From a virus, in the IMG/VR virus record IMGVR_UViG_3300033571_012987, positions 1-52,540 of that record: a stretch of DNA of 52,540 nt. One strand, written 5' to 3'. Within the stretch, counting starts at the first letter, position 1. The number at the start of each line of letters is the position of its first letter. Made by a program: the position numbers and the translations under genes. The notes beneath the pieces are model-generated. The model was given only the letters and a program-made list of their open reading frames with translations, was not told the origin of the DNA and did no database searches. Positions 3,205 to 38,188 of the stretch are shown in pieces.

Positions 3205-4326
3205 TTAGGGATAACTAGTTCCTTCTATTATAGAATGGCACTCTTCCCTACTCTTGCCGCTATGCAGTATCATTCTGTTAAGGTCATGGTACGACGACCT
3301 AGAACCCTCAAACCCTTCAAGTTTTGACTCAACCCCGCAAATTCTCACCAACTCATCTTTAAGGTCCGTTATCATCCTGGCTAGAAGATTAAATCCATCC
3401 CTTGGGTTCGATCTCTCGGAGCAAGAATGGCTAATGTCTCTTTCTAGCCACAAGTCGATATTGTCTAGGGCCACCATGACGTGGGAATCAAGCATCCTAG
3501 ACATACCGATTACTCTCTCCAGTCTCCACGGATTTACCTTATGGGGCATGGAGGACGAACCAATTTCACTATCGTTTTTCTTGAAGCTTATTTCACCAGC
3601 GATCAGAGATAGCCTTATACAATTCGCAAGTCTGGATAGCACCTTACCCACCACGGCCATTCTGAAGTGATATTCGGCATACACTTGCCTCGGTATCACT
3701 TGAGTCGATCCAGGATGAGCTTCAAGACCCAATCTGGACAGGGCCGCTACCTCACAGGTCTTATGATCGTTGAACCCGTCTGCTAGACCGACCGGTCCGG
3801 ACATTTTCCCATAGAACTTCAAGGAGTCTATAGCCTTCTTCTCCTCCACTAGTTCATCCATTATCCTGCCGAACCGAGTCCATAAGGAGATTCTGATCCC
3901 GGTGTCCGCCCCGTGAGTCCTAGCTGGGACTATTATATTGTCCTCAATACTTGAGGAGATCAGTTTACGGAGCCGATGTGATATGAAGTCAAATGAATCC
4001 CTGTACAAAGTGGATAAGGTGGTATCAACAACATCACTGGACGTGAGTCCGAAATGCACCATATTGTATGATTTATAGCCCACCCTTCTCAATTCCCTCT
4101 CCAGGGCTATTACCATGGAAGCGATATCGTGTCCATGTTTTTTCTCCAATTCTCTGGATGTCTCTAATAGGGACTCAACACACAGGTCATTCAGTGATGG
4201 GACTCGGTCATCCGCCATTCTAACGTCGCTGAGGGCCGTCAGCCATTTCAACTCAGTCTTAATTCTAGCAACGAAAACGCATCGTTCTGACCAGATCGAT
4301 TCCACCGATTCATTTGTGTATCTCAT
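3205..4326 (-). CDS. purB: Adenylosuccinate lyase-like protein
   Basis: The protein is 373 aa of the fumarase/aspartase superfamily, closest to PurB. Visible landmarks are T-S-S-D-V-V-D-T (95-102), the catalytic-histidine region A-R-T-H-G (135-139), G-K-M-S-G-P-V-G (173-180), T-Q-V-I-P-R, the superfamily signature G-S-S-S-M-P-H-K-V-N-P (256-266) and W-L-E-R-D-I-S-H-S further on. PurB cleaves adenylosuccinate and SAICAR in purine synthesis. It is shorter than bacterial PurB (about 430-470 aa), lacking part of the C-terminal region, but the active-site loops look intact. In phages that replace adenine by 2,6-diaminopurine, PurB activity is needed on the deoxy-substrate, so base modification is one possible role. 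The ATG overlaps the 3' end of the upstream membrane-protein gene. Confidence 0.88.
   Translation of the reverse strand: MRYTNESVESIWSERCVFVARIKTELKWLTALSDVRMADDRVPSLNDLCVESLLETSRELEKKHGHDIASMVIALERELRRVGYKSYNMVHFGLTSSDVVDTTLSTLYRDSFDFISHRLRKLISSSIEDNIIVPARTHGADTGIRISLWTRFGRIMDELVEEKKAIDSLKFYGKMSGPVGLADGFNDHKTCEVAALSRLGLEAHPGSTQVIPRQVYAEYHFRMAVVGKVLSRLANCIRLSLIAGEISFKKNDSEIGSSSMPHKVNPWRLERVIGMSRMLDSHVMVALDNIDLWLERDISHSCSERSNPRDGFNLLARMITDLKDELVRICGVESKLEGFEGSRSSYHDLNRMILHSGKSREECHSIIEGTSYP
3211..3218 (-). promoter_or_regulatory. CTAGTTAT late-promoter candidate
   Basis: On the minus strand the octamer reads CTAGTTAT, 10 nt upstream of the ATG at 3200. The same octamer lies 4-6 nt before four other genes in the window. 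Confidence 0.5.
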
Positions 4327-4600
4327 AATACTTTAAGAAAGCGCTCAGTATGTAAGATAAAGCGTAGGTAGGTAGAAGGAACTCAGGTTGATACAGTAAC
4401 GAGACCCACAGACTGACACACAAATGGCAGGTGCTAGGCGAAAATGTTGTTATATGCCCGATAGACCGCATCACCCTCTGATATGACCCGTCGATCTTTA
4501 TTCTGATCATCGTTAGGATATCAGCTTTGGTCAATACTACGGTCAGTATGAATACTGACAGGAAGTCAATCAAAAGCTGGAACTTCTGATCTTGAAGCAT
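4310..4600 (-). CDS. Small membrane protein
   Basis: The protein is 96 aa from the ATG at 4600; a longer frame from a GTG at 4636 would overlap the sigma gene more. There is one clear hydrophobic segment near residues 8-26 and another hydrophobic half near residues 55-90, with a C-x-x-C pair (T-C-H-L-C) between them. The pattern resembles small phage and DUF1360-type inner-membrane proteins, but the similarity is weak. It overlaps the 3' end of the sigma-factor gene upstream and the purB start downstream, so it is in an operon with both. Confidence 0.6.
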   Translation of the reverse strand: MLQDQKFQLLIDFLSVFILTVVLTKADILTMIRIKIDGSYQRVMRSIGHITTFSPSTCHLCVSLWVSLLYQPEFLLPTYALSYILSAFLKYYEIHK

Positions 4601-5537
4601 ACAACAACTTTTCGCTGAAGACCTCTTCTCCCCCACCTATTATACCGTCTATTATGGAGTGCATTTGCTCCCAGTCCAGATTGTACTTCCTAGCCACCTC
4701 CATTTCATCCACTTCATTCTTATAAGACTCAGAACTTATTGCTGCCACCTTAGCCAGTTTTATTATGCTGGAGGCTGAGGGAAACCTTATGCTATTGCCA
4801 GCAAAGATGCAACACAATTTCTTCGTATTCTCAAAACCGACCACATCCATGATATCCTTCAGGAATGAGAACCTAGTAGAGGCTACCAATAGATCCTTGA
4901 ACGATAACGGGTGATTATAATGTTCTAGGAAGGCTCCTCTTACAGCACCATGGGTCCAGTCGAGCATAAACTTGGCAGTATCAAGATCCATGCCGTAGGC
5001 TTCACAAGCAGTCTTCAGAATATACTTTCTTCTACTGTAACCTCTATTTCTTAGGATGGCATACACCATATACTTTATGGCTTCTCTGACTGCTGGTTCG
5101 TGCCACCTTACTGAAATGGCCGCGAGCCTGTTCTTCATTCTGTCGTTTAGATCGAACCCAAAGTCTGACTCGTAGGAAGCTGAGTCTCCTAGTGATTCAA
5201 GCGGAACGTTGGTATAGACACATCTTTGTCTAGCAATTTTCTCCTTCGTGACGTATGAGAGGCACCCATTCTTGATGGAGACACTCATATAAGTGTAGAG
5301 TTTGCCATCTCCAGGAACCCAATTATCTATCCATCTCTCGAATTGTAGGAATAACCAGTTCCTAAGATCAAGAAATGGAACTTGAAGGCTGAATTTCGAA
5401 CCTCTTATGATGCTATCTATGAGATGAATCGATTCCCCACAAATCCTCTTGTAGGTATTGAAGTCTCGGTTCCTCTTCCACTGGATTACCAGGGTTTCAA
5501 CGAACTCGTTCTCGAAGATAATGCGTTTATTGTTCAT
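4566..5537 (-). CDS. Phage RNA polymerase sigma factor-like protein (gp55-like)
   Basis: The protein is 323 aa. Around residues 78-105 the segment K-L-Y-T-Y-M-S-V-S-I-K-N followed by K-E-K-I-A-R-Q-R resembles sigma region 2 of sigma70-family and T4 gp55-like late sigma factors, where a Y-x-x-x-x-x-x-N helix is followed by a basic stretch. The C-terminal half is not recognised, and a canonical region 4 is not evident, as in T4 gp55. The frame opens with TTG at 5543; I prefer the ATG at 5537. It would direct the host RNA polymerase to phage late promoters, for which the CTAGTTAT octamers elsewhere in the window are the obvious candidates. Moderately sure of the sigma call, not of the class. Confidence 0.6.
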   Translation of the reverse strand: MNNKRIIFENEFVETLVIQWKRNRDFNTYKRICGESIHLIDSIIRGSKFSLQVPFLDLRNWLFLQFERWIDNWVPGDGKLYTYMSVSIKNGCLSYVTKEKIARQRCVYTNVPLESLGDSASYESDFGFDLNDRMKNRLAAISVRWHEPAVREAIKYMVYAILRNRGYSRRKYILKTACEAYGMDLDTAKFMLDWTHGAVRGAFLEHYNHPLSFKDLLVASTRFSFLKDIMDVVGFENTKKLCCIFAGNSIRFPSASSIIKLAKVAAISSESYKNEVDEMEVARKYNLDWEQMHSIIDGIIGGGEEVFSEKLLYASRSEVPAFD

Positions 5538-5603
5538 AGTCAATACCTGACTTCTTAGAAAGGAAGAAAAAGGTCTTGACGGTGAGACGTAATTAGTTAT
5601 TCG

Positions 5604-6200
5604 TCAAGTCGGGTCGAAATCTGGTACATAAGTCGGCCCACGCCTATACCTTTCTCTCCTCACTATGGTATCTTCAATGAAACCAGCCATTTCCTCTTCC
5701 AGATCTTCCCTTTTCACTGCTAGGAATTCCTTGAGAGGGAGAGCGCCCCTGAATTGTTCGTCATAGGCACGGAGAAGGTCCGCGAAAGCGGAACAATCGG
5801 TAGCCTTCCAGAACCTAAAGCTTAAATCAGGCCAAGTAGAGAAGCTTAGATTCCTACCACCGACTATGGCGCATGACTCGTTCATCACCACCTTTGTGTG
5901 GCTAGTAAGAACTTTTATGCTCAACTTTGGAAGCATCTCGGAAACCTCCTTTAACTTGACTTGGAGGTTCATTATACTGTTCACGGCCTCTGGTCTTTGA
6001 GGTTCATGTCTGCCTATCAGCATCCTCACCTTCACCTTTCTCTCCTCCGATGCCTCAAAGAGGGCGAGAGCTACCCTCTTTGGTGGCAAGTGTATCCCGA
6101 AGGAGGCTATGTTGACGAACTTATTGGACTCTCTGATGAGAATCAATACGGAGTTCCAATGGTGGCTCCAGTCGCTCAGTACCTCAATATTTTGGGTCAT
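5604..6200 (-). CDS. Phospholipase D-like (single HKD) protein
   Basis: The protein is 198 aa. It carries one HKD-type motif, H101-T-K103 followed by G114-G-R-N117, in the arrangement HxK(x)nGGxN of the PLD superfamily, after an N-terminal half with the usual strand pattern (I-L-I-R-E-S, V-R-M-L-I-G-R). PLD-fold proteins with one motif usually dimerise to build the active site and include nucleases as well as lipases. The conserved Asp of HKD is not obvious: position +6 after K is S-C-A rather than D. The start overlaps the stop of the upstream 62-aa gene (ATGA), so the two are coupled. Confidence 0.72.
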   Translation of the reverse strand: MTQNIEVLSDWSHHWNSVLILIRESNKFVNIASFGIHLPPKRVALALFEASEERKVKVRMLIGRHEPQRPEAVNSIMNLQVKLKEVSEMLPKLSIKVLTSHTKVVMNESCAIVGGRNLSFSTWPDLSFRFWKATDCSAFADLLRAYDEQFRGALPLKEFLAVKREDLEEEMAGFIEDTIVRRERYRRGPTYVPDFDPT

Positions 6201-7050: not shown

Positions 7051-7078
7051 GTACTGATCGACGGGATTTCTAACCTGT

Positions 7079-7672
7079 ATGACAAACCCAAAACTATATT
7101 ACTTCATCAATTGCGTAGTATTCTCACTAGGGGCCTCGTATTTCATTAGATCAGGACTTGGCACAGACCCCCTTGACGTCTTCTGTTTGGGGATCCAAAA
7201 CAAAGTAGGACTCAGCATCGGAACTACTCAGTCATTATTTGCTCTAGTATGCCTTCTGATCTGGTCAGCCATAAATTCTTGGATGATGCCTCCGTGGAGT
7301 ACTTTCTTGACCTTCTTCCTCTGTGGGTATATGATAGACCTCTTTAGGCATAATATACCGACGTTTTCGTCTGGATATACCAATATGATTATCGGGTCCA
7401 TTCTATGCCTTCAGGGGTCGGCTGGTATCATATACAGCGGTTTCGGTATCAGGGCGATGGATTTGGTATCCATCTCGGTGGAGAGGATAACTGGGATAAA
7501 ATTCTGGATCACGAAAGCCGTTTTTGAGACAGCACTATTAACATTGGGTTGGTATATGGGAGGTCCGGTTGGTATTGGAACGATCACCTTCCTTGTAGTA
7601 GTCGGGTATCTAATTCAGCCTTGCATCACAATCAACAAGTTTATACTTGACAAATCAACAAGTCTGTGGTAA
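7079..7672 (+). CDS. YczE/YitT-like integral membrane protein
   Basis: The protein is 197 aa with about five to six hydrophobic segments. It shows the internal two-fold pattern of the YczE/YitT-type family: F-I-R-S-G-L-G-T-D-P-L-D-V (about 22-34) and L-S-I-G-T (about 45-49) in the first half, and S-G-F-G-I-R-A-M-D-L-V (about 120-130) and G-G-P-V-G-I-G-T (about 160-167) in the second. The biochemical role of the family is not well defined; it is a bacterial membrane family and unusual in a phage, suggesting capture from a host. TTCTA lies at 7068-7072, 6 nt before the ATG. The 3' end carries the next promoter. Confidence 0.72.
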   Translation: MTNPKLYYFINCVVFSLGASYFIRSGLGTDPLDVFCLGIQNKVGLSIGTTQSLFALVCLLIWSAINSWMMPPWSTFLTFFLCGYMIDLFRHNIPTFSSGYTNMIIGSILCLQGSAGIIYSGFGIRAMDLVSISVERITGIKFWITKAVFETALLTLGWYMGGPVGIGTITFLVVVGYLIQPCITINKFILDKSTSLW

Positions 7673-11611: not shown

Positions 11612-11638
11612 TCCACTTTAGAACGTAATTATCACCAC

Positions 11639-12007: not shown

Positions 12008-12015
12008 GTAGTTAT
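12008..12015 (+). promoter_or_regulatory. GTAGTTAT late-promoter candidate
   Basis: One mismatch from CTAGTTAT and 4 nt upstream of the ATG at 12020, the same spacing as at three other sites. Confidence 0.4.
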
Positions 12016-17280: not shown

Positions 17281-17309
17281 AAAATAACATATGAATCCAA
17301 CTTTGTCAA
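17281..17309 (-). promoter_or_regulatory. Extended -10 sigma70-type promoter
   Basis: On the minus strand: TTGACA (17309-17304), 17-nt spacer ending TGT, TATTTT (17286-17281); ATG 5 nt later at 17275. The -35 overlaps the stop codon of the upstream gene. Confidence 0.75.
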
Positions 17310-17720: not shown

Positions 17721-17742
17721 TAGAATGCCGCACTGATTTCTA
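17721..17742. promoter_or_regulatory. Back-to-back TTCTA motifs between divergent genes
   Basis: TTCTA on the minus strand (17721-17725) lies 7 nt before the ATG at 17713, and TTCTA on the plus strand (17738-17742) lies 6 nt before the ATG at 17749. The 35-nt divergent gap holds little else, so these are the best candidate promoter elements for both genes. This is a motif-level inference. Confidence 0.4.
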
Positions 17743-20599: not shown

Positions 20600-20604
20600 G
20601 TTAT

Positions 20605-22377: not shown

Positions 22378-22399
22378 GCATGAAAGAACGCTTCCACCA

Positions 22400-22407
22400 C
22401 TAGTTAT
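22400..22407 (+). promoter_or_regulatory. CTAGTTAT late-promoter candidate
   Basis: CTAGTTAT lies 6 nt before the ATG of the baseplate wedge gene (22414). Confidence 0.55.
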
Positions 22408-22413
22408 TGTGAG

Positions 22414-24822
22414 ATGGCAACTAATAAGGCAATAGACTTGACGGGTAGGGAGTTCGATACGAATCTCCAAGCCATAATTGATACCCTGAAAAGGGAATCG
22501 CCAGAAAGCTGGAACTCGTTCTATGAAGGGGACTTGGGTAAAATTCTGCTTGATCTAGTGGCTTATGACTTCTCTATCCTGAGTTATACCGCTGATATGG
22601 CAGCTGGTGAGTCATTCATCGACACACATAAGACAACTGAGGCACAACAGCACTTCTGCAGTCAAATAGGTTACAAAGTAAGGGGGGCAACGGCAGCAGT
22701 CATAGAACTATACTGCCAGTCAACGTCAACACCTCAGTCTGGGCAGTACTTCCTTATCAAGAAAGGCCAGAAGCTTAGGAATTCCACCGGCTTGGTTTGG
22801 GAAGTGTCAAAAGATTACTATATAGAGCCGGGGCGGTTCACCCCCGTTCACGAAGTAATCAGGTATGGAAGCCTCAAGGGTTCGGTCATTTCTACCACTG
22901 GAGTAGTGGAAAAGGTGGATGCCCTGATTTGCCTTAGGGCTGGGTCAAGTCAGGCAATTCTTACGGACATTAACGGTGATAGGTTATCCTCGGAAGTGGG
23001 TTTCAGCGTCGTCTCTGATGGTTCCATACTGAAGCTGACTAGGACATACGATCCGGTGACGAAAGTATTCGGACCGCCCCCGGACTCCACGAGGAATGAA
23101 TACGCCATCATAGGTGTTGGTAAGTTAGCTTCGGATGCCTACGATAAGTCTGTCTTGTTCCTGGATAGGGCTTGGGATCAGAATTATGATTTCGTAGGAC
23201 AATGGGTAATCGAGAATAGAAACATAGAAGTAACACAAGGGGAGAGCTTCTCAGAGTCATACACTGTACCAACCAGTCTGGATGATAGGGTTAATTGGTC
23301 CGTGAAGACAGCCTTCTATCCAGTCATTTTCGCGGAGAGTGATAACCCGATGCCAGCCGGATTCTTTGGAAACGCCCTCTCAGGGGAGGGAATAACCAGT
23401 ACCGGGGTGGAAGTTTACGTGAATGGTATCCAGTGGGAAGAGACTAGCAACCTGATATTCGAAACACCCACTTCAAGGGCCTACCAAATAACGACTGATG
23501 AGTTAGGTAGGGCTTCCATAAAATTCGGAGACGGCAGATTCGGTAAGGTTCTCCCAAGCAACGCGGTAGTGGAGATAAAGTACAGGGTAGGAGGCGGCAA
23601 GGATGGTAACGTGCAACAAGGCTCTTTTAACACCTCTGTTCAGGTGGAGTCTTCCACTGGCGATTTGGTAACGGCTTTCGCGTCTAACCCATATACGGTC
23701 GGTAGAGGAGGTCAGGACAAGGAGTCAATGGACTCCGTGAGATCCAATCTTAAAAACTTCATCAGAACCAATGATAGGGCAGTCGGCGCTGAGGATTACG
23801 ACTACCTTGCTTCCAACTTCGTTGATAAACAAGGTGGAAGGATAAAGTTCGCGAAGAGTGTATTAAACACCAACATGGTACCCCGTGAGCAGAATATTGT
23901 GTGGGTATACACGTGGGCTGAGGGAGTGAACGGTCAACTTACCAGACCAAATGATATTCTGAAGAGGAAATTGAAAGATTACCTTGATCTAAGGAAGATG
24001 ATCTGCGATGAAGTCATCGTTCTGGACGGTCCTGTGAAGAGTGTCCCAATAGAATTCAGATACAAGTATTCTGGTGATGCTGACGAATTTGAGACTTACG
24101 AAGCAGTTAGAGCGGCTGTGAACGGTGTCTTCAAATCCCTCCTTCCCGGTAATCAACTATCGATGAGCAGGTTGTACGAGGCAGTGGAATCGATTGAGCA
24201 AGTGGAATGGGTCAGCTTCTACTCCCCTTATGAGAATCTGATCCCTCCTTCTGAGTATACGTTGTTCGTTAACTCCATTCAGCCAGCCTATAAAGCCACG
24301 TTGGTTAATCCGGTCTCGAAGTCAGACATTACTATCACAGTTGATGACGCCTCGTATTTTGCGGTCAATGGTATAATCTCTTTCTTTGAATTTGGTAAGT
24401 CGGCCACCTCCTCCATCATAGCTTCAATATCCGGCAACAGTGTAACGATAAGGCCGGAAACCCCACTGAATGATGATTATTCAGTCAATGCTGTGGTCCT
24501 GAATACCGACTGGTACCAGATGGGGTGGCAATACGAGAAGATTATCAATGTTTACGTCTCATACGACACCCTGAATGGTGGGTCATTGGTTCATATTGGG
24601 CAGCAAATTAAGAAGGCCATAACCGATTACTTCGCTAGGGTCATTACCGTAGAAGAATCGGTCCAGAAACAGACTCTTAATTCATTAGTGAGTTCAATAA
24701 GCGGCATAACCTCATATAGCGTCAATCTCGGAAGTGTCGATTCTCAAGTTGACACTATAGCCATGATACCAAGGGAGAAGGCTGTCTTGGGGAAGGTAGT
24801 AATAAACGGAACCGATTTCTAA
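22414..24822 (+). CDS. Baseplate wedge protein (T4 gp6 / baseplate J-like)
   Basis: The protein is 802 aa. The N-terminus contains E-G-D-L-G-K-I-L-L-D-L-V-A-Y (about 38-51), typical of gp6/J-like baseplate wedge proteins (D-x-x-x-x-L-x-x-x-x-A-x), followed by a beta-rich central part and G-A-E-D-Y-D-Y-L-A (about 464-472), the J-family G-x-x-D-Y-x-x-x-A motif. gp6 dimers form the continuous ring of the myovirus baseplate that triggers sheath contraction. It heads the structural block 22.4-34.0 kb. Confidence 0.85.
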   Translation: MATNKAIDLTGREFDTNLQAIIDTLKRESPESWNSFYEGDLGKILLDLVAYDFSILSYTADMAAGESFIDTHKTTEAQQHFCSQIGYKVRGATAAVIELYCQSTSTPQSGQYFLIKKGQKLRNSTGLVWEVSKDYYIEPGRFTPVHEVIRYGSLKGSVISTTGVVEKVDALICLRAGSSQAILTDINGDRLSSEVGFSVVSDGSILKLTRTYDPVTKVFGPPPDSTRNEYAIIGVGKLASDAYDKSVLFLDRAWDQNYDFVGQWVIENRNIEVTQGESFSESYTVPTSLDDRVNWSVKTAFYPVIFAESDNPMPAGFFGNALSGEGITSTGVEVYVNGIQWEETSNLIFETPTSRAYQITTDELGRASIKFGDGRFGKVLPSNAVVEIKYRVGGGKDGNVQQGSFNTSVQVESSTGDLVTAFASNPYTVGRGGQDKESMDSVRSNLKNFIRTNDRAVGAEDYDYLASNFVDKQGGRIKFAKSVLNTNMVPREQNIVWVYTWAEGVNGQLTRPNDILKRKLKDYLDLRKMICDEVIVLDGPVKSVPIEFRYKYSGDADEFETYEAVRAAVNGVFKSLLPGNQLSMSRLYEAVESIEQVEWVSFYSPYENLIPPSEYTLFVNSIQPAYKATLVNPVSKSDITITVDDASYFAVNGIISFFEFGKSATSSIIASISGNSVTIRPETPLNDDYSVNAVVLNTDWYQMGWQYEKIINVYVSYDTLNGGSLVHIGQQIKKAITDYFARVITVEESVQKQTLNSLVSSISGITSYSVNLGSVDSQVDTIAMIPREKAVLGKVVINGTDF

Positions 24823-24828
24823 ATCAAA

Positions 24829-26820: not shown

Positions 26821-26823
26821 ACG

Positions 26824-26831
26824 CTAGTTAT
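26824..26831 (+). promoter_or_regulatory. CTAGTTAT late-promoter candidate
   Basis: CTAGTTAT lies 4 nt before the GTG start of the giant adhesin gene; the flank CGCTAGTTATTAA is identical to the one before the gene at 37692. Confidence 0.55.
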
Positions 26832-26835
26832 TAAT

Positions 26836-29800
26836 GTGGACGTAACCTTTAAAAATAACACTAACCAGTCTCTTAGTGCCTACTACTACGTTGGTTCTAA
26901 CGAGAAAGTCGTTGATATACCACCTGGCCAGTCGGTGCAACTGACCGGTATAACAGCTGTTAGCCCATCCACAGACAGACTACTCAAAAGCAAGTATTTG
27001 AGTATTGTGTATTCAACGGCTTCAACTCAGGAAAGTACCCTACCCTTGAATGTGAGGGGAATGGCCTGGGCAGGTCATTGGAATGGGCAGGTTTCCTATC
27101 ATCCGGGATACGTGGTTTCTTTCTCCGGATCGGTATGGGTAGCAAAGAATGGTTCGAAGAATAGTGAACCGGACCTGTTGAACACTGATTGGGAGTTGAT
27201 AGGAGCACAGGAGCTAAACTCCCTTCTGAATATAGAAATAAGCTCTATACCGGTTGGTAGTGTAATTTACAGGGATGAATACGGCTGGACTTTCGGGCAG
27301 TTATCAGATTCCTCCATATCTGGCTCCATCTCGATGGGGAAGATAAACGGCCTGTCTGAAGAACTGGACGACAAGTTGGCTAAGACTGGTCCTGACCAGA
27401 CCATAGAGGGCAACGTATCATATACTGGTGATATTACTGGTGTGAATCACCTCGTAAATAAGGCTTATGCGGATACAAAACTCGCGTTAGCCGGTGGTAC
27501 GATGACCGGTGCCATTTTGATGGATCCATCGGTTCCGGTGGTGAACCAACAGCAGCTTACCACTAAAGAGTATGTGGACGCGGTCTCATCTGGTTACCTC
27601 CCTCTCGCAGGAGGAGAGATGACCGGGTTCCTGAGCATCCCTCTAACCCCCGTCAGTGATAACCACGCGGCCAATAAGGCTTATGTGGACACCAAGTTAT
27701 CCTTATCAGGTGGCGTGGTTACTGGGTTCCTGACTTTGAGTCAGACTCCTACCTCCAGTCTCCATGCGGCCAATAAGGCTTACGTTGATTCGCAGGCTTT
27801 GGCTGGTGGTGTCCTGACCGGAAAGCTTAAATTGCCGATTGCTACCACTATAGACGATCAGGCTGATCTCACCAATAAGAAGTACGTTGACTCTCAAGCT
27901 TTGGCCGGTGGCATCCTAACCGGCAAGTTGAAGCTACCGGTGTCAACTCAGGTGTCAGATAATGACGACCTGACTAATAAATTGTACGTTGACTCGGTGA
28001 TGATGGATAGACTGGCCAGATCGGGCGGTACGATGACCGGTCTTATATACTACAACGTTCCGAGAGTAGGGGTTTCAGCAGACCCTGTGACAGACATCTT
28101 TACCTTTCAGTCACATGGGTTCAAATCAGGAAGATCTGTTATACCGACTTTCACGTCCGGATTTGGAGGGATAACGAGTGGATCGACCTACTACATAGTA
28201 TCTGTTCCAGGAGACCAGGTAAAGAACCAGTTTAAACTTGCCTATACCTTCGGTAATTCCACTGTTGGGGAAGCTGGATCTACTACGTTGTACACTGGAT
28301 CGACTGCTTCCCTTGCAGTTGGTCAACCCATTGATGGCGTAGGGTTCCAAACCAATACTATAATTTCAAGGATTGATGGGCCAACTTCGTTCATCATCAG
28401 CAACACACTCCTGTTGTCCCAGCCGAGACCTATAGACGTTACTTCAGAAGGAGTTGGCGCTACCTTCAAGTACGCCACTCAGGAATTGGACGATCAGGTC
28501 ACTACCAAGGATTACATAGACGATGTTCTTGGTATAAGTGGCGAGACCCTTACTACCTCCGGTGGCACAATGATCGGTCCGATACTTGGAAATCACGGTC
28601 TCCTACAGACCGATGGTAACAAGTCGATGACTGGTTCACTGATCCTGGCTGACCTTCCAGATATCACGATGGATGGACTTGTTCCTCGTGAGTGGGCCAT
28701 ACTTGGCTTTGCCTTCCACTCAGCTACTGAGTCCAAGGTTTATATTGACGACATTTTAGCGTGGGCTTCCCATCACGACATAAAGATATCCGGAACTGGA
28801 CTCTATGACGGCGTCTATGAGGTGTCATTGGTAGATAAGGAAAATGGCTACCTAGTGATCGAGAGGGAATTCGATGGAACCGTCTCTGGAACGGCCAACC
28901 AATATGCTGGTGGACTCTACTTCTCCACCACTGAGAATGGCGTATCCTATAGGAGGAGGAAACTGATCTCCAGAGGATCCTCCGTGGTGGTGGAGGGTAA
29001 TATACTAGATGTTGCCACCACAATTTATGAAGTACAGCCAAGTGATGGTGTGTTACTGGTTAACTCTACGCCAATATCAATTATAGACCTTGGTGATCCA
29101 AATGACGCGATAGGTCAGGTAGTCATTAAGAAGGTTAATGACTCAACCGGGTCATTTGTAATAGTCAAGGGCATAAATGGTGGGGATTCAAATTTAGTAC
29201 TAGACACTAAATACGACGCTGTCGTAATGGAATCCATCAAAGATGGAAACGGTGGCTCTGAATGGACCCCGATAGCTAGAATCAGAAACGGGGAGAACGT
29301 AGCGAGGGTAATTTTCAATGGCTGTTTCTTGAGATTTCCAGGAAGTCTCGACGTTGACATCTCGACACAGAGATCATTCGAGAAGACTACTAAGGTGACG
29401 TCTGTAACCTCCGTCACGATAGCCTCAGTGGCCTGCATCGAGATGACTGTGGAGGACGCCTCCGATTTCCAGACCGCCGTGGTCATAACGGTTGAGGGAT
29501 CAGTTTCTGGGTACAACGGCAACTACGCTGAGAACAATATAATATCAGTAGATACCGTTAATAATAAGATAACTCTTACCAACATTAACGATGTTAGCAT
29601 AGTCAACGAATCCAATTTCTTCTTGGTATCCAATGTTAACAAGCTATTTAAGTCTAATCTGGCTCTGACCACCTCGCCGGTCGTAAACGATATAAGACAA
29701 TCCCGTTTATCAGCAAGAATAGCTGGCTTTGCCAATGCAGGTGACGTTTTATCTGATCCGAGTTCCAGTTCCGAATCATCCTCCAGATACACTGACGTCA

Positions 29801-32800
29801 TACTCGGTAACAACATTAGCATAGAATCCATCGAGAATGTGCCGGTGGTGATAGATGGAGTAACGACAATAGGCACCACCTCACCATATTCCCTATATAG
29901 ACCGGGTCATGGTCTCGTAAACGGCGACCAGGTGGTGTTCGTGTTCGACGGCGCATCTTCCTCCTCCTCTTCGTCTTCCGAAGCGGAACAATTTGGTGGT
30001 CTTGTGAGTGGTGAGACGTACTACGTGACGAATGTTGTTGACGAGTTGGATGACGAGTTCGACCTTAGTGATGAGAGAGACGGGGCCGCAATTCCAATAA
30101 CTTCGCCCGGAGTGAATGGAGTTCTGACTAAGGTCGATTCCAGCGGAGTTCTGAAGGTCATTCTGAACCGCGAAGAATTCGATGGCGCATTCACTAGTGG
30201 GGAACTTACCTCTGGAGATAAAATAAACATAAATTGGGCGTCCACTGGCAGCGGGTCTTATGATGGTTCCTACTTAGTGGACGACGTGGACGTTGGAGAC
30301 GTTGACACTTTACCCTCAGTCACCATTCGCGGAGCCTATGTTGGAGTAATAACATCAGGCTATCCCAAAATGGCCGAGGCTGTTGACGCCTCCGATTGGA
30401 TACCAGGTTTCCACTTGGTACAAATATCGAATTACTCCGAATACACTGGTATATACGATCTAGTAGCTGTTGATCCAGTTTATGGGAAGCTTACCATTAG
30501 GAAAGACTACGTTTCACCAGCTGCTCCGGTGGTGACTCCAGGAGTGGACGTGGTAAGCAGGTCAACGCACATCATAAAACAACATCCAAGTGTGTTTGGG
30601 AAGGTTCTCAATGGGGAAAATACAGATGTGGTCTCCGCGAGAACTGATGGGGATGGTGATTTGACTATTCGTTTGTTGAACCCGGTCACTGATATAAACC
30701 TACCATCGAATGACCTGGCTTCGGTAGCCAACATATCAAATGAGATAAGCGGCTCATATCTGCATGCTGTCTCTGGCGGCATATTCGACTTAACCGGTGA
30801 GATCACGGCTAGGGTTACTAGCACATTGGTTTACTCCTCTACGATAGTGTCTGGTGGTGGACCTGCTGATGGAAACGGTCATATTACCTTCGCAATGAAT
30901 AACGTTATAGGATTCCGTGAAGGGGATTCTGTAAGGATAAGCACTGAATTGGTAGATAGAACCGTAATATCGATAGATAATAATAATATCACTATAGATG
31001 GAGGCGATTACACACTGGCTGGAGCACAGTCTATAACCAATAGTTCAGTCATGGTATTGGTTCTCGATGATATGTCATCGGGTGCCTTTGATGTAGGCGA
31101 CCCGATCATAATAAGGGATGTCACCAGTCTCGGCAGTAGTTTGATCAAAACCACTGTATCAGGAACTTCGCCTTTGATCACAACTCCATACACTGCTCCG
31201 AGAATAGTGATTAGGGGATTCAATAAGGCAGTGGATGACCCAAATGGGGAACCGGTATCGGCTCAAACATCCGTAGCGGAAGATTCCTTAATATTCGAAT
31301 CATTGCATAACTTCTCCACCGGTCAAAAGGTTAGAGTAGCGTTTGCTAATACGATATACACTGGGTTCTCGCTGACTGCCGACTTGTACGCCATAAGATT
31401 AAGCGTTTCGTCCATCAGACTGGCGATCAGCCAAATCAACGCATTCGATGGCAGGTTTATCAACCTGATAGCCAGTGGATCAGGAACCGTTACCCCCTTA
31501 GCGACGGTCTCGACAGCCTTCGATCCGACCGGTTCTCTAATAGGAACTGTTGAGGTTCCGAAGATCCTGAGTCTATACTCTATAAAGCCGTGGTCGTGGA
31601 TGTCCTGGAGAAGCACTTTCACTCTCGTAAGTGGTAACTTGGAAACATGGACTGATTACTCTGGTAATGGTAGAAACTTCGCTCAAGGTACCATCGCTAA
31701 CAGGCCGGTGTACGTTGGAAGTAACTTCAATGGTGTGGCAGCAATTAGGTACTTCGACTTCACCTCTAATAATAAATTCGTCAGTTATTCGTTGCCTCAA
31801 GATAAGCCACAGAGTCTTACAATAATATTCGTGGCGAAGATGAGTGGCAATGGAGTTGTCTTCAAATCAGGTACCTCAATAACCTTCTCAAGGGATTCCT
31901 TAAGTTATTCCTTGTCTGGGGTCTCCGGATCTCTCATAACTGGAGGGAGACCAGGCTCAGCCGCTGGCGTCTACACCATAGTACTCGATGGTGATAATTC
32001 TAGGTTTAGGAAGTTCACCTCATTCGCCTCATCCCCGCAGGAGGTTTTCGGTTCCATAATAGGAGGACTGACCAGCAATATTTCCATAGGTTCAGGTTCT
32101 GGAGGATTTAACGGTGGATTGACAACCTTCATGGTGTTCAGTTCTGCTCTGAACGACGATCAGATATCATTCCTTGAAAGATCGTTGGCATATGAACATG
32201 GTATCACTACTCTGAGCAATAATGCCTTCCTGAACACTCTGTCGATTGTCGGCAGTGATGCTGCTGGAATAATCTTCAGTCCAGCATTCAACGGCTACAC
32301 CACGACCGGGTATTCAGTATCAATACAAAATTCTGTGACTTGGGCCAGGGTTACCGCCACCCCAATACAATCGAACGCCTCGATGAGGGTCAGGATAAAC
32401 TCTGGTGGGTGGTCAACTCTGATAAGTGGGATTCAGAGTGGAAATCTGAACCTCAATGCTGGCAGCAATATTATAGAGATAGAGGTCGTAGCCCAAGACG
32501 ATACCACTGACGAAATCTATGAGTTGAGCATATTCAGGAGAGCCGCTCCTACAGTCAACAGTCCTACCTTCACCAGCGTTGGAGTATCCTCGGCAATAGT
32601 TGGCGGAACGGTTGTTACAGACAACGGGGCGGCGATCTACGAAAGAGGTATCGTTTATTCGGCTCTGGCCGATAATGCTGACCCAATAATAGGGGGCACC
32701 TCAGTTACTCAGTCGGTAGCCACCGGAACCGTTGGTACCTTCACTAAGTCTATCTCTGGTCTGTCGCCCGGAACGGCGTATAATTTCAAGGCTTACGCTA

Positions 32801-33510
32801 TCAACGCCGAAGGTACTACCTACAGCAATGTATTGACCTTCTCGACTCTGAGTAATAATGCATTGCTTAGCGCACTTTCTGCGCTCTCTGGATCTCCTCC
32901 TTCCTCATTATCTCTTACTCCATCGTTTAGCAGCATACAAACGTCTTATACGGCAACGGTCACACAAGGTAACAAGACGATGACTGTAACCCCGACAGTG
33001 GCCCAAGTTAACGCCACCGTCAAGGTCAGGATAAACAGCGGGTCATACGCCACAGTTACCTCCGGGTCACAGAGCGGTTCACTTAGCTTAGTTAATCTGA
33101 ACTCCAACCCGAATATCGTTGACGTCGAAGTAACCGCTCAAGATGGGGTTACTACAGAGAACTATTCGATATCGGTTACTAGACCAGCCACCACGCCGAC
33201 CGTCACTACTCCTACTCAAGCCTCAGTAACGGACACAACCGCCACACTTGGAGGTAACGTCACCTCTGATGGCGGGGATGATATAACGGAACGCGGTGTT
33301 GTTTACAGCGAGACTGGAACCAACAGCAACCCAATAATTGGAGGAACCGGTGTTACGAAAGAACCCGGAACCGGAACCACTGGGATCTTCACCGTCAACG
33401 TCGGCCTGATCGTCGGCCTGACATCAGCCACTGGCTACAGTTACAAAGCCTACGCCACCAATAGCCAAGGCACCACCTACACCTCAGTTGACACATTTAC
33501 CACCTTATAA
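26836..33510 (+). CDS. Giant tail fibre/adhesin, 2,224 aa
   Basis: Starts with GTG (an ATG two bases earlier is out of frame and stops at once). A small carbohydrate-binding-like module with G-H-W-N-G-Q-V-S-Y-H-P-G-Y-V-V lies near residues 75-115. Residues about 209-400 contain six or so repeats of N-K-x-Y-V-D-(x)n-G-G-x-M-T-G, the trimeric fibre repeat of many phage fibres. There are beta-rich stretches with Ser tracts (about 974 and 1,040), a LamG/concanavalin-like domain (about 1,578-1,790), then two copies of a cadherin-like beta-sandwich plus FN3-like pair (1,793-2,008 and 2,009-2,224). It is the likely host-binding protein. Confidence 0.85.
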   Translation: MDVTFKNNTNQSLSAYYYVGSNEKVVDIPPGQSVQLTGITAVSPSTDRLLKSKYLSIVYSTASTQESTLPLNVRGMAWAGHWNGQVSYHPGYVVSFSGSVWVAKNGSKNSEPDLLNTDWELIGAQELNSLLNIEISSIPVGSVIYRDEYGWTFGQLSDSSISGSISMGKINGLSEELDDKLAKTGPDQTIEGNVSYTGDITGVNHLVNKAYADTKLALAGGTMTGAILMDPSVPVVNQQQLTTKEYVDAVSSGYLPLAGGEMTGFLSIPLTPVSDNHAANKAYVDTKLSLSGGVVTGFLTLSQTPTSSLHAANKAYVDSQALAGGVLTGKLKLPIATTIDDQADLTNKKYVDSQALAGGILTGKLKLPVSTQVSDNDDLTNKLYVDSVMMDRLARSGGTMTGLIYYNVPRVGVSADPVTDIFTFQSHGFKSGRSVIPTFTSGFGGITSGSTYYIVSVPGDQVKNQFKLAYTFGNSTVGEAGSTTLYTGSTASLAVGQPIDGVGFQTNTIISRIDGPTSFIISNTLLLSQPRPIDVTSEGVGATFKYATQELDDQVTTKDYIDDVLGISGETLTTSGGTMIGPILGNHGLLQTDGNKSMTGSLILADLPDITMDGLVPREWAILGFAFHSATESKVYIDDILAWASHHDIKISGTGLYDGVYEVSLVDKENGYLVIEREFDGTVSGTANQYAGGLYFSTTENGVSYRRRKLISRGSSVVVEGNILDVATTIYEVQPSDGVLLVNSTPISIIDLGDPNDAIGQVVIKKVNDSTGSFVIVKGINGGDSNLVLDTKYDAVVMESIKDGNGGSEWTPIARIRNGENVARVIFNGCFLRFPGSLDVDISTQRSFEKTTKVTSVTSVTIASVACIEMTVEDASDFQTAVVITVEGSVSGYNGNYAENNIISVDTVNNKITLTNINDVSIVNESNFFLVSNVNKLFKSNLALTTSPVVNDIRQSRLSARIAGFANAGDVLSDPSSSSESSSRYTDVILGNNISIESIENVPVVIDGVTTIGTTSPYSLYRPGHGLVNGDQVVFVFDGASSSSSSSSEAEQFGGLVSGETYYVTNVVDELDDEFDLSDERDGAAIPITSPGVNGVLTKVDSSGVLKVILNREEFDGAFTSGELTSGDKININWASTGSGSYDGSYLVDDVDVGDVDTLPSVTIRGAYVGVITSGYPKMAEAVDASDWIPGFHLVQISNYSEYTGIYDLVAVDPVYGKLTIRKDYVSPAAPVVTPGVDVVSRSTHIIKQHPSVFGKVLNGENTDVVSARTDGDGDLTIRLLNPVTDINLPSNDLASVANISNEISGSYLHAVSGGIFDLTGEITARVTSTLVYSSTIVSGGGPADGNGHITFAMNNVIGFREGDSVRISTELVDRTVISIDNNNITIDGGDYTLAGAQSITNSSVMVLVLDDMSSGAFDVGDPIIIRDVTSLGSSLIKTTVSGTSPLITTPYTAPRIVIRGFNKAVDDPNGEPVSAQTSVAEDSLIFESLHNFSTGQKVRVAFANTIYTGFSLTADLYAIRLSVSSIRLAISQINAFDGRFINLIASGSGTVTPLATVSTAFDPTGSLIGTVEVPKILSLYSIKPWSWMSWRSTFTLVSGNLETWTDYSGNGRNFAQGTIANRPVYVGSNFNGVAAIRYFDFTSNNKFVSYSLPQDKPQSLTIIFVAKMSGNGVVFKSGTSITFSRDSLSYSLSGVSGSLITGGRPGSAAGVYTIVLDGDNSRFRKFTSFASSPQEVFGSIIGGLTSNISIGSGSGGFNGGLTTFMVFSSALNDDQISFLERSLAYEHGITTLSNNAFLNTLSIVGSDAAGIIFSPAFNGYTTTGYSVSIQNSVTWARVTATPIQSNASMRVRINSGGWSTLISGIQSGNLNLNAGSNIIEIEVVAQDDTTDEIYELSIFRRAAPTVNSPTFTSVGVSSAIVGGTVVTDNGAAIYERGIVYSALADNADPIIGGTSVTQSVATGTVGTFTKSISGLSPGTAYNFKAYAINAEGTTYSNVLTFSTLSNNALLSALSALSGSPPSSLSLTPSFSSIQTSYTATVTQGNKTMTVTPTVAQVNATVKVRINSGSYATVTSGSQSGSLSLVNLNSNPNIVDVEVTAQDGVTTENYSISVTRPATTPTVTTPTQASVTDTTATLGGNVTSDGGDDITERGVVYSETGTNSNPIIGGTGVTKEPGTGTTGIFTVNVGLIVGLTSATGYSYKAYATNSQGTTYTSVDTFTTL

Positions 33511-34037: not shown

Positions 34038-34044
34038 TATTAAC

Positions 34045-34073
34045 TTGACAGACTATCAAGTGTGTGTTAAAAT
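34045..34073 (+). promoter_or_regulatory. Extended -10 sigma70-type promoter
   Basis: TTGACA 34045-34050, 17-nt spacer ending TGT, TAAAAT 34068-34073; ATG 5 nt later at 34079. An early promoter placed directly after a late structural block. Confidence 0.8.
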
Positions 34074-34078
34074 GATAT

Positions 34079-34309: not shown

Positions 34310-35022
34310 GATGACACCGCCAAGAACAGGTCCTTGAACTCTTCCTTGGTGGAAGTTTCAGTAATCTTGAAGTTACCCCTGTTCAAGCACCACTCGGAGA
34401 AGCATTCAGAATAATCACTGAGTCTTCTGACGTCTCCACCATAAGTTGATAGCAAAGGCTTCAATGAATAAGGCTTCCTGCCCTCAACGAAGTCTTTGAC
34501 ACTGGCGTGATTCTTGAAGTCGATCGATTGAAGCTGAGATGGCGTGACCGAATTGTGAGTGAGGGCGTTTAAAATGTGTATCACTATCAGCTTATCAACA
34601 GCCGTAGTGAACATGCTGATCACTTCCTTGAAGCTCAGCTTACCGTGCATGAACTCGGATAGTCTGTCAATTAATGCTTCCTTGACAAAGCAGTATTGGT
34701 TGGCCCATTTTATCTTGTTGGTTGATGAGACGTTCATCTCCCAATGCCTCTTTCCCAATGCCTTGAAGAAAAAAGCGTCTATCCTATCTCCGGCTGTGAA
34801 ATTGGATGGGTGAATCGTTATTTCGTCCCTTGATCTATCGTATACTATCTTCTCTCCGTTTACCGGACTCTCTAGGAATTTTATCGGCTTGAGTCCAGTG
34901 TACGATCTGGAGAGCTTCAACCCATCGATTCTTCTGAAGAGATCCGGAAGAGTATCAGCGAAGGCCGACATCCTCTTCAGGAAATCACTTGATGATCCAG
35001 TGTAGAGTACTTTTGGTATCAC
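34306..35022 (-). CDS. Hypothetical protein with a possible degenerate zincin-like core, 238 aa
   Basis: Starts with GTG at 35022, two bases after the previous stop. The middle (about residues 75-110) reads I-T-I-H-P-S-N-F... then D-A-F-F-F-K-A-L-G-K-R-H-W-E-M, placed like the H-E-x-x-H helix of phage metalloprotease-like proteins but with the first His/Glu missing. Later Y-S-E-C-F-S-E-W (about 206-213) would fit the third-ligand region. This resemblance is weak. The gene ends the minus-strand operon 38.2-34.3 kb. Confidence 0.55.
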   Translation of the reverse strand: MIPKVLYTGSSSDFLKRMSAFADTLPDLFRRIDGLKLSRSYTGLKPIKFLESPVNGEKIVYDRSRDEITIHPSNFTAGDRIDAFFFKALGKRHWEMNVSSTNKIKWANQYCFVKEALIDRLSEFMHGKLSFKEVISMFTTAVDKLIVIHILNALTHNSVTPSQLQSIDFKNHASVKDFVEGRKPYSLKPLLSTYGGDVRRLSDYSECFSEWCLNRGNFKITETSTKEEFKDLFLAVSS

Positions 35023-35024
35023 GA

Positions 35025-35399
35025 TTACTTTCTGAGTTTCTCTATTTCCTCATCCGAAATTATCTCTTTTTCTTCGGCATCGTCAACTGACTTCTCTTGT
35101 GGGTCAACGATCATGACCTTAGAACCCTCATCCTTCACTACCTGGGCCTTCTGGATTCTGCCATCTTTGTAACGATAAACCTCTTGGCCTGGGGATAACT
35201 CGCCCTCAACCATCTTGAGTAGCTTCTTCGCTATCTGAGGATTGGCCTTGTAAAACCCTTCAGATACTCTGATTAAGCCATTAGACGAAACGGCCTTTCC
35301 TATCGCTGCTTTGCTGAACCCAGCCTTAAGGAGTCTTCCTTCCGAGACCGTTCCTTTTAAGCTGTAGATGCCGTATAATTGGGAGTTTATGTCTTTCAT
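35025..35399 (-). CDS. Hypothetical protein, 124 aa
   Basis: No family recognised. N-terminal residues 1-60 look like a small helical domain (G-F-S-K-A-A-I-G-K-A-V); a beta stretch follows (E-V-Y-R-Y-K-D-G-R-I) and an acidic tail ends the protein. Overlaps the previous gene as ATGA. Likely co-expressed with virion-associated neighbours. Confidence 0.6.
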   Translation of the reverse strand: MKDINSQLYGIYSLKGTVSEGRLLKAGFSKAAIGKAVSSNGLIRVSEGFYKANPQIAKKLLKMVEGELSPGQEVYRYKDGRIQKAQVVKDEGSKVMIVDPQEKSVDDAEEKEIISDEEIEKLRK

Positions 35400-35974
35400 G
35401 CTAGTCCAAGTTGTTTTGCTAACGATTCTCCCTCAGCCTCCCCTCCTGCAGCAGGTTCTGGTTCGGGAGCTTCTTCAGGCTTCGGAGTCTCTTCACCAGA
35501 CTTCTCTGACCCAGCTTCTGGGGCGACTGGTGTTTCTGGGCTGACGGAGTTGTGAAGCTGCATGAGGTTCTCTCTGAGCTTGTTGATATAGTCAATGACA
35601 GGCGAACTCGGAGAGGCTCTATCCTGGAACATGTTCCTGAGTTTATCAGAAAGTAATTTGGAGTTCTCCCTGACCGTGTTTGGGCTTGATTCTGAATCGG
35701 CCTTAAACTGATTCAACACGCCCATTACTGCCTCAATGGTCAACTTCTCAGGACTATCCGGTGGAAGGTCAACCACCTCGTCCTCCCTTCCTTCAAAGAA
35801 GGTGATAGCGGAGGTTAGCATTTTATTGAAGGTGGTCACTTCATCTCCTTCAGTAAGACGCCTCATCCTAACAGGCTTCCTCATATTGGCGACGGAGGAC
35901 TTCCTGACCCTGTTCTCCATAATTTTGAACTGGCGTCTCCAGGCCAAATCTACTACTCTAGATGATCCTGCCAT
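35396..35974 (-). CDS. Hypothetical protein with Pro/Glu-rich C-terminus, 192 aa
   Basis: Basic N-terminal 40 residues (R-V-R-K-S-S-V-A-N-M-R-K), a helical middle, then residues about 147-185 dominated by Pro, Glu, Ala and Gly. Unknown function; the composition is compatible with a head/tail accessory or scaffold-type protein. Neighbour genes overlap or lie within a few bases on both sides. Confidence 0.6.
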   Translation of the reverse strand: MAGSSRVVDLAWRRQFKIMENRVRKSSVANMRKPVRMRRLTEGDEVTTFNKMLTSAITFFEGREDEVVDLPPDSPEKLTIEAVMGVLNQFKADSESSPNTVRENSKLLSDKLRNMFQDRASPSSPVIDYINKLRENLMQLHNSVSPETPVAPEAGSEKSGEETPKPEEAPEPEPAAGGEAEGESLAKQLGLA

Positions 35975-35977
35975 TGT

Positions 35978-36493
35978 TTATTCGGATGAGGGTGATGAGT
36001 TTGAATAGAAAATCTTGGGAGTCTCGTCTTGAAGGAAAGTGTCAAGGTGAGTGTCTTTTTCACCCTCTCTCTCATACGACTTCCAGACTGTCAGATCAGC
36101 GGCTGACGAAGCCTCCACCCTGAGTCTAGAGTTGGTGGAACTAGTCATCACGAAAGAGAATAAGTTCATATCCCTTTCTTGCAACAAGATCTGCAAGAAT
36201 CCACCGGCTTTTAGAGTCTGAGCGGCCACTGCCTCAGAGTACGCAGCGTCATTTTCCTGGCTCTCTGCGGCATGACTTCTTCTTGCTGACATCACCTTGA
36301 AGATGACATCAGCATCTCCATAGTTCTTCAGTAGGACGGCAATGTCACACTGATTGCTTATACCAGTGTCGTTCTGCGAGGGACTACTGGTTATCGCCCT
36401 TCTCGGTTGAACGAATATCTTCAGGAAGGATTCGTCGGCCACCCTTGGGTGAACGATTTCATCTATTCTTATTGGAAATATAGCGTTATGCAT
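35978..36493 (-). CDS. Hypothetical protein, 171 aa
   Basis: No recognised family. The beta-rich first half (I-R-I-D-E-I-V-H-P-R; D-I-A-V-L-L-K-N-Y-G) and Ser-rich C-terminus may point to a virion component. It follows the duplicated-domain gene after 8 nt. Confidence 0.6.
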   Translation of the reverse strand: MHNAIFPIRIDEIVHPRVADESFLKIFVQPRRAITSSPSQNDTGISNQCDIAVLLKNYGDADVIFKVMSARRSHAAESQENDAAYSEAVAAQTLKAGGFLQILLQERDMNLFSFVMTSSTNSRLRVEASSAADLTVWKSYEREGEKDTHLDTFLQDETPKIFYSNSSPSSE

Positions 36494-36501
36494 AACTGTT
36501 G

Positions 36502-37692
36502 TTACTCTTCATGACCCCCAGATGGAGTGATTTCATATTCCCAACCATGACCGATCTGTTTAGCATCGAAACCAAGTTTCTTGATAGCCCTGAGGAGACT
36601 CGATGAAATGTTTCTGGAATTTTCTCCGTGATACCAGACAGTGCTTTTCACACCGTCTTTGGACAATTCATAGCTACCACGTTCCTCATTGTCCCTTAAA
36701 GTGATTCCTAACGAAGCGAGAGACTTAAGAAGTTCTGGGACTAGCAAGCTGCTGTTATCAGCCATCACGAATACGCTCTTTCCTTCTGAGATTGTGCTCT
36801 TAGATTCAGAAAGAGCGTCAAGAACTTCCGGGTCCTTCATCCTATTATGCCTTGTAGCAAGGCGATGAAGTTCGTCCTGAGCTTGAACTTCTTTGGCCTT
36901 GTCTCCAGTCTTGCGAGCGTGTCTTACTCTTGTAATCAAGGCTTGGAATGGGTCATTTGATTCATTGGTCATGGTTGGGGCTATTTCATATTCCCAACCA
37001 TGACCGATCTGCTTGGCGGTGAAACCTAGTTTCTTGATAGCCCTGAGGAGATTCGATGAAATGTTTCTGGAATTCTCTCCGTGATACCAGACAGTACTTC
37101 CCACGCCATCTTTGGACAATTCATAACGACCGCGTTCTTGATTATCCTTGAGAGTGATTCCTAACGAATCGAGGGATTTCAGAAGTTCAGGAACTAACAG
37201 GCTGCTGTTATCTGCCATCACGAATACACTATCCCCTTCTAAGATCGTGCTTTCACCGGTGAGAACCTTGGTCCTAGCGTCGATCGATTTCCTCATCTGA
37301 TTCTTGTCGAAATAAGAATAAGCCTTGCCGTCATTGACGGCTCTCTTGGCTTCTTCTGCAGTGTTCACATACCCGATGACGTCACCATCTTCATTCTTCA
37401 AACCAAAGTTACTTGATTCACAGAAAGACTTGATATCGCTAAGAACCTTGACCGTTTCCCGGAGACCACCTTGTAGTCCTGGAGCCACGTCGGTGTAAGT
37501 CCTCTTCACCAGTTTACCGGTGCTGGAGCCAGTCCTAGTTACCGGTAGAGCTAGCTTGTTACCTTTGACCGTTACGTCACTGCCCTTTCCATAACCAGAA
37601 AGATTGCTGTTTGGCTTGAAATGCTGTTTTGTCTTGACTCCTTTTCCGGCAAAGACGTTTTTGAATGGCTTATGGTCGAGAGGATTGCTCAT
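36502..37692 (-). CDS. Protein with two tandem copies of an ~85-aa domain, 396 aa
   Basis: Starting at 37692 (a TTG at 37725 extends the frame, but the CTAGTTAT motif and ATG favour 37692). Two copies of a domain beginning S-V-F-V-M-A-D-N-S-S-L-L-V-P-E-L-L-K-S-L and ending I-G-H-G-W-E-Y-E-I lie at about residues 150-240 and 305-390, joined by a basic helical linker. They differ at only a few positions. The N-terminal ~100 residues are basic and disordered. Domain function unknown; each has the length and strand pattern of a small alpha/beta fold. Confidence 0.75.
   Translation of the reverse strand: MSNPLDHKPFKNVFAGKGVKTKQHFKPNSNLSGYGKGSDVTVKGNKLALPVTRTGSSTGKLVKRTYTDVAPGLQGGLRETVKVLSDIKSFCESSNFGLKNEDGDVIGYVNTAEEAKRAVNDGKAYSYFDKNQMRKSIDARTKVLTGESTILEGDSVFVMADNSSLLVPELLKSLDSLGITLKDNQERGRYELSKDGVGSTVWYHGENSRNISSNLLRAIKKLGFTAKQIGHGWEYEIAPTMTNESNDPFQALITRVRHARKTGDKAKEVQAQDELHRLATRHNRMKDPEVLDALSESKSTISEGKSVFVMADNSSLLVPELLKSLASLGITLRDNEERGSYELSKDGVKSTVWYHGENSRNISSSLLRAIKKLGFDAKQIGHGWEYEITPSGGHEE
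36524..37250 (-). repeat. Intragenic duplication (two ~275-nt copies)
   Basis: The segments at about 36524-36800 and 36976-37250 are highly similar at DNA level, including third-codon positions, so the duplication is recent or maintained by gene conversion. Boundaries are approximate. Confidence 0.8.
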
Positions 37693-37696
37693 GTTA

Positions 37697-37704
37697 ATAA
37701 CTAG
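37697..37704 (-). promoter_or_regulatory. CTAGTTAT late-promoter candidate
   Basis: On the minus strand CGCTAGTTATTAAC precedes the ATG at 37692 with 4 nt between octamer and start codon, matching the site at 26824-26831 over 13 bases. Confidence 0.55.
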
Positions 37705-37717
37705 CGTTTGAGTAAGG

Positions 37718-38176
37718 TTATTCAACGTTGGGTTTTTTAGCCGCCACCAACTTATCCTTTTTCATCTTCTGGACATATTCCTTGCCAGAATCTACGTGTT
37801 CCGTAGTAACCCTGATGTAGTGATTAGAGATTGGATCGACGCTCTTCACAATATAAGAATCAGGCGCTTGATTCCAGGAAAGTATGTAACCGGGTTTCAG
37901 TTCTCTGGCCAGGATGGCAGATACCTTTCCAATACCCTGCAGGTGGATGAATCTTGTTCCCTCAGATAGATACTTCTTGATGGTCTCCGGCGAGTCGTTG
38001 ATTGGAACACAACAGTCCCCCTTCTTATGCGTCCTGATTTCGTCTTTATCTGAATCGTAATAGGCTCTGCCATTACTCCTCAAGACGCTGGCCGCTCTTT
38101 TCCTTAACCTGACTGGCAACTCCCTTATTCTTACAGAGTCTTCGTTTAATAACCTATGTACTATGTTTGACGGCAT
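37718..38176 (-). CDS. Hypothetical protein, 152 aa
   Basis: Start at 38176 is chosen because CTAGTTAT is 4 nt upstream; in-frame GTG/ATG codons at 38206/38203 would begin before the motif. The N-terminus is basic and helical (R-L-L-N-E-D-S-V-R-I-R), followed by beta-rich sequence with Y-I-L-S-W-N-Q-A and Y-I-V-K-S-V-D. Unknown function; probably late. Confidence 0.6.
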   Translation of the reverse strand: MPSNIVHRLLNEDSVRIRELPVRLRKRAASVLRSNGRAYYDSDKDEIRTHKKGDCCVPINDSPETIKKYLSEGTRFIHLQGIGKVSAILARELKPGYILSWNQAPDSYIVKSVDPISNHYIRVTTEHVDSGKEYVQKMKKDKLVAAKKPNVE

Positions 38177-38180
38177 GAGT

Positions 38181-38188
38181 ATAACTAG
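38181..38188 (-). promoter_or_regulatory. CTAGTTAT late-promoter candidate
   Basis: On the minus strand ACTAGTTAT lies 4 nt before the ATG at 38176. Confidence 0.55.

Follow-up and report, generated by a model that had tools for sequence, protein, structure and literature searches.

What does the octamer CTAGTTAT do, standing as it repeatedly does a few nucleotides before a gene start in a 52,540-nt fragment (hereafter the window; IMG/VR record IMGVR_UViG_3300033571_012987) of the genome of an uncultured virus of bacteria? A first-pass annotation took it for the late promoter of the phage, read by a sigma factor of the phage's own. The answer that we favour, and consider probable though well short of certain, is that CTAGTTAT, with the core TAGTTAT, serves as the −10-type element of a phage-specific promoter that lacks a −35 element and gives rise to leaderless messages, that the phage has two other promoter classes besides, and that two of the three would come into play later in infection by means of a phage factor.

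The window contains five copies of CTAGTTAT where 1.55 would be expected; of 100 shuffles, 1 got to five. Together with GTAGTTAT, which was correctly reported before the gene at 12020, there are six sites, all on the coding strand of the downstream gene and separated from its start by 10, 6, 4, 4, 4 and 4 nt (Table 1); positions and spacings are as first annotated. The two most alike sites, 26824 and 37697(−), had been credited with a common 13-mer; they do share sequence, though the shared stretch is 16 nt long (AAACGCTAGTTATTAA). That no site has a TTGACA −35 is upheld, the best hexamer 15–19 nt upstream having 2–3 mismatches. Derivation of the TAG from stop-codon overlap is ruled out, the sites before 12020, 22414, 26836, 37692 and 38176 being intergenic.

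The octamer is modest by count and strong by position. When all 15,823 7-mers of the window were tested, independently of gene calls, for an open reading frame (ORF) starting 11–13 nt downstream, TAGTTAT proved to be the most start-tied of them all, with 5 of its 9 copies so placed (p = 5.1e-7, about 0.008 once corrected for the number of words tested). Against gene calls, it lies 11–13 nt upstream of 5 of 55 gene starts versus 2 of 3002 other ATG/GTG codons (Fisher p = 3e-8), but the starts in this comparison were partly hand-chosen and the 7-mer scan is, for that reason, the fairer test. A general sigma-70 scan of 20000–39900 gave no excess of promoters (30 vs 28.1), so the signal is a positional and not a numerical one. 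Could it be chance, or the outcome of start codons having been chosen to fit the motif? The modest count would suit that, as would three TAGTTAT copies outside the gene-start slot, but TAGTTAT comes first in a scan that makes no use of gene calls, and two other classes of element sit equally far from the start; we give this explanation hardly any credence.

Those other classes are what sets TAGTTAT in context. Class 1 has the host-type form TTGACA-N16/17-TATAAT-like, with the −10 hexamer beginning at −11 to −14 and ending 5–8 nt before the ATG; counting exact TTGACA only, it precedes 9 of the 55 starts versus 4 of the 3002 other ATG/GTG codons, and its targets include the genes for primase, RIIB and DnaJ. 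Class 2, TTCTA at −11 or −12, was found at 9 of 55 starts versus 10 of 3002 other codons; its starts lack TTGACA, those at 7079 and 51811 having a one-mismatch TTGTCA at 16–18 nt. Also without a −35, TTCTA is as strong a class as TAGTTAT (class 3) and occupies its slot. Two further promoters with TTGACA may be recorded here. A TTGACA-N17-TATTTT-like one runs from 17309 to about 17275(−) and is followed by an ATG at about 17275, where no gene start was called; a small gene that was not listed, or a longer start, could be present there. Within the spacer of the other, a host-type TTGACA/TAAAAT promoter at 45528-45494(−), lies a copy of GCGTAGTTAT, which represents either two promoter classes overlapping or chance.

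All three promoter-like classes share one place, about −12 (−11 to −14) relative to the start. The Shine-Dalgarno core (GGAG, GAGG, AGGA or AAGG, correctly placed) is present at 8% of genes versus a background of 18%. A −10 element about 6–7 nt before the start, without a Shine-Dalgarno sequence, is the mark of a leaderless promoter, and the common placement of the three classes matches the geometry expected of leaderless mRNAs. Class 1 appears to set this geometry independently of TAGTTAT and TTCTA: because its sites are recognisable sigma-70 promoters at that distance, transcription is expected to begin at, or within 1–2 nt of, the start codon. The 4-nt spacing of the octamer points to a leaderless mRNA, unlike the situation in T4. 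Three classes of leaderless promoter would be the simplest reading. Should TAGTTAT instead be seen as a translation signal, a ribosome-binding element of non-Shine-Dalgarno type? Its nearness to the start codon at a constant spacing would fit, as would the lack of Shine-Dalgarno sequences, but 4 nt is unusually close for ribosome docking, the place is that of the −10 elements of recognisable host-type promoters in this same phage, and a minority of genes use it; such a signal is, we think, very unlikely.

With the promoter reading, genes whose messages start at the first codon would require no ribosome-binding site, and one geometry would serve class 1, class 2 (portal, terminase) and class 3 (baseplate wedge, adhesin) alike. 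A phage factor, possibly the 4566-5537 protein, would redirect the host core polymerase so that it reads classes 2 and 3 later in infection.

How late, and is CTAGTTAT ‘the’ late promoter? Its targets do include, as had been claimed, the baseplate wedge and the giant adhesin, both identified as virion genes, and CTAGTTAT is probably used late in infection. The part of the first-pass claim that stands is a −10-like element without a −35; that it is the only such class does not, since the portal gene, which sits between the baseplate wedge and adhesin genes (both with CTAGTTAT), has TTCTA, as has the terminase gene. If CTAGTTAT is late, the same probably holds for TTCTA, which could leave the phage with either a pair of late-type classes or a middle class and a late one.

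The obvious precedent is T4. Late promoters of the T4 type consist of TATAAATA, read by the gp55 sigma with gp33 and the sliding clamp; for T4 and the cyanophage P-SSM2, late TAAATA was found at −21 to −40 before starts. A −10-only element with no −35 before virion genes is common to T4 and the present phage. In T4, however, the element is 21–40 nt upstream of a Shine-Dalgarno-led start whereas here it is at −11, and here the sequence is another one, gp55 is not recognisable and there is a second −10-only class. No TAAATA is present at gene starts in the window, and neither the gp33 co-activator nor the gp45 clamp was seen in this fragment. The gene at 4566-5537 had been called gp55-like, a claim that failed: nothing in the window matches PHROG 234, the gp55 family, at E<=1 (although, this being a fragment, the gene may lie elsewhere), hhalign gives 0.1% probability versus six gp55 sequences, and its identification as gp55 is rejected. 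The view that this is a T4-type phage with CTAGTTAT as its only late promoter, recognised by a gp55-homologous sigma encoded at 4566-5537, draws on the −10-only element before two virion genes and on a weak sigma region-2 signal in that protein, but given the gp55 result, the spacing and the use of TTCTA at portal and terminase, we deem it distinctly unlikely.

What, then, is the 4566-5537 protein? Its N-terminal half weakly matches Pfam Sigma70_r2 (E=0.035) and an NCBIfam sigma-factor model (E=0.0044), both below curated cut-off, the latter match being best taken as a mark of the common sigma fold only and not of that model protein's role. Its C-terminal half matches PHROG 836 ‘late transcriptional activator’ (E=4.7e-4) and Pfam Mor (E=0.014, below curated cut-off), and resembles a standalone 106-aa protein of contig G001 (BLASTP 3e-7). 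AlphaFold models of the whole and of the N-terminal part, with pLDDT 33 and 47, are too poor for use. The protein is a reasonable candidate for a transcription factor of the phage, of sigma or activator type, and should be called nothing more specific. Perhaps it is a hybrid factor whose sigma region-2-like and Mor/C-type halves steer host polymerase to one or both of two new −10-only elements, CTAGTTAT and TTCTA, with leaderless mRNA in every temporal class, a suggestion offered tentatively and with far more doubt than belief.

The Mor/C resemblance brings phage Mu to mind. Its Mor/C-activated promoters are likewise −35-less, and the Mor/C-like part of the present candidate is C-terminal; in contrast, Mor/C have no counterpart of its sigma region-2-like N-terminal half, and no activator box was found here when the upstream DNA was inspected by eye. 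On a Mu middle/late-type scheme the host sigma-70 holoenzyme itself would use TAGTTAT and TTCTA as poor −35-less −10 elements, recruited to them by a Mor/C-like domain such as that C-terminal half. Absence of the −35 suits this and the best-scoring domain of the 4566-5537 protein is indeed Mor/C-like, but inspection by eye showed no common box upstream of the −10 elements, and they depart from the TANNNT that sigma-70 favours, TAGTTA and TTCTAN being without the last T and TTCTA without A at position 2. We regard this scheme as unlikely, though not negligibly so.

Support for T4-late-like function in a leaderless layout, though without showing descent, comes from elsewhere. In the Pelagibacter myophage HTVC008M (NC_020484), which has a gp55 gene, 12 of the ORFs that span at least 60 codons have TAAATA exactly 11 nt upstream of their ATG, and a further copy lies at 13 nt. 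The targets, according to its record, include genes for the DNA end protector, head closure, tail tube cap, baseplate wedge, tape measure and tail completion, and the placement implies that its T4-type late promoters are leaderless; in a pelagimyophage study a search for middle and late promoters was reported as unsuccessful (PMC7029224). Low-GC uncultured contigs, likely marine and traced by way of a DUF3307 gene that they share with the window, also have TAAATA and TATAAT at −11 to −13 and little Shine-Dalgarno, and the source records of five (G013, G016, G028, G029 and G031) contain a clear gp55. TAGTTA occupies −11 to −6, the slot of TAAATA in HTVC008M and the marine gp55-bearing contigs, and agrees with it at 4 of 6 bases (T-11, A-10, T-7, A-6). 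What they have in common with the present phage is a −10-only element placed at −11 to −13 upstream of genes, virion genes among them; they differ in that their element is still the T4 TAAATA, in that gp55 is clear in them, and in that HTVC008M has Shine-Dalgarno sequences at 53% of its genes. As a variant of known phage late promoters the CTAGTTAT system seems promising.

Leaderless middle and late transcripts have been reported for the Thermus phage phiYS40 (PMC3594737, a review), an unrelated phage that differs in being Shine-Dalgarno-rich (42% vs 15%, for a third of its genome). TAGTTAT and TTCTA are absent from the enriched words of phiYS40 and of Rhodothermus phage RM378 in the first 50 kb of each. 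RM378 has, in that same stretch, TATTTAA <=25 nt upstream in 11 of 58 genes where 0.22 would be expected, possibly a phage promoter word of its own. Among cells, Deinococcus-Thermus bacteria have a −10 motif (TANNNT) adjoining ORFs, and there too a −10 element beside the start codon, in a spacing-sensitive manner, yields leaderless mRNA (PMC12340547); the difference is that the housekeeping sigma reads it, and the class 2 and 3 words misfit TANNNT. No description of CTAGTTAT or TTCTA promoters was found in the literature, subscription papers being largely outside the scope of the search.

Several points weigh against the reading of CTAGTTAT as one of three leaderless promoter classes. Class 3 sites number only five to six in the 52.5-kb fragment, and all three elements are missing before 30 of the 55 genes, whether because they lie in operons or because variants were undetected. 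Three of the nine TAGTTAT copies, at 5594, 45509 and 50984, lie outside the gene-start slot and a fourth is off it at −17; four of the six octamer target genes are without known function; and the 4566-5537 protein is weakly sigma-like. No close relative was found among viral contigs through the portal, the DNA ligase or the candidate factor, so conservation of the sites cannot be shown, and timing and the responsible factor remain matters of inference. Promoter function and the leaderless start belong with these, while the words themselves, where they lie, their enrichment and the lack of Shine-Dalgarno sequences are direct observations.

If true, one phage drives early- and late-type genes from three promoter classes, all yielding leaderless mRNA, and two of these are −10-only words without description in the papers found. 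A simple rule, a −10 element at −11 to −13, would expose late promoters missed in other phages, just as it recovers the T4-type ones in a Pelagibacter myophage, from a group where published searches had been unsuccessful, and the pairing of phage factor and promoter becomes directly testable.

Table 1. Promoter-like elements, two virion genes and the candidate factor gene in the window
Feature	Position	Strand	Remark
CTAGTTAT	3211..3218	−	10 nt 5' of ATG of gene 2913-3200(−); within 3' end of PurB-like lyase gene; weakest by spacing (−17)
GTAGTTAT	12008..12015	+	4 nt before ATG at 12020; gene of no known function
CTAGTTAT	22400..22407	+	6 nt before ATG at 22414; baseplate wedge, gp6-like
CTAGTTAT	26824..26831	+	4 nt before GTG at 26836; 2224-aa adhesin / tail fibre
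CTAGTTAT	37697..37704	−	4 nt before ATG at 37692(−); 16 nt common with 26824 site
CTAGTTAT	38181..38188	−	4 nt before ATG at 38176(−)
TTCTA	1071..1075	+	−12 of gene 1083; terminator-like hairpin immediately 5'
TTCTA	1467..1471	+	−11 of gene 1478-2029
TTCTA	7068..7072	+	−11 of gene 7079-7672
TTCTA	11619..11623	−	−12 of terminase large subunit gene 8267-11611 (intein-bearing)
TTCTA	17721..17725	−	−12 of gene 17306-17713
TTCTA	17738..17742	+	−11 of dNMP-kinase-like gene 17749-18408
TTCTA	24817..24821	+	−12 of portal gene 24829-26820
TTCTA	50202..50206	−	−12 of gene 49607-50194
TTGACA-N17-TAAAAT	34045..34078	+	host-type, leaderless (predicted); gene 34079
TTGACA-N17-TAGAAG	40983..41017	−	host-type, leaderless (predicted); DNA primase gene 39951-40982
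TTGACA-N17-TATAAT	51840..51873	+	host-type; ends 5 nt 5' of ATG of DnaJ-like gene; leaderless, early-type promoter (predicted)
Baseplate wedge protein (gp6 / baseplate J type)	22414..24822	+	PHROG 219, E=1.6e-29
Giant tail fibre / adhesin	26836..33510	+	tail fibre PHROG 8378, E=1e-8, N-terminal part
Candidate transcription factor	4566..5537	−	sigma region-2-like N-terminal half, Mor/C-like C-terminal half

Alignment-based searches gave DUF3307 relatives and distant terminase relatives (25–30%), the latter mostly Shine-Dalgarno users. As to the host, the DUF3307 membrane protein (13950-14384(−)) has about 50% identity to Streptomyces phages, and both it and the PurB-like lyase (3205-4326(−)) match actinophages well among isolates; DUF3307 matches in bacterial contigs are mixed. 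These matches hint at, and fall short of proving, an actinobacterial host. Finally, the intein in the terminase large subunit gene (8267-11611(−)) has a LAGLIDADG-like domain as judged by Pfam.

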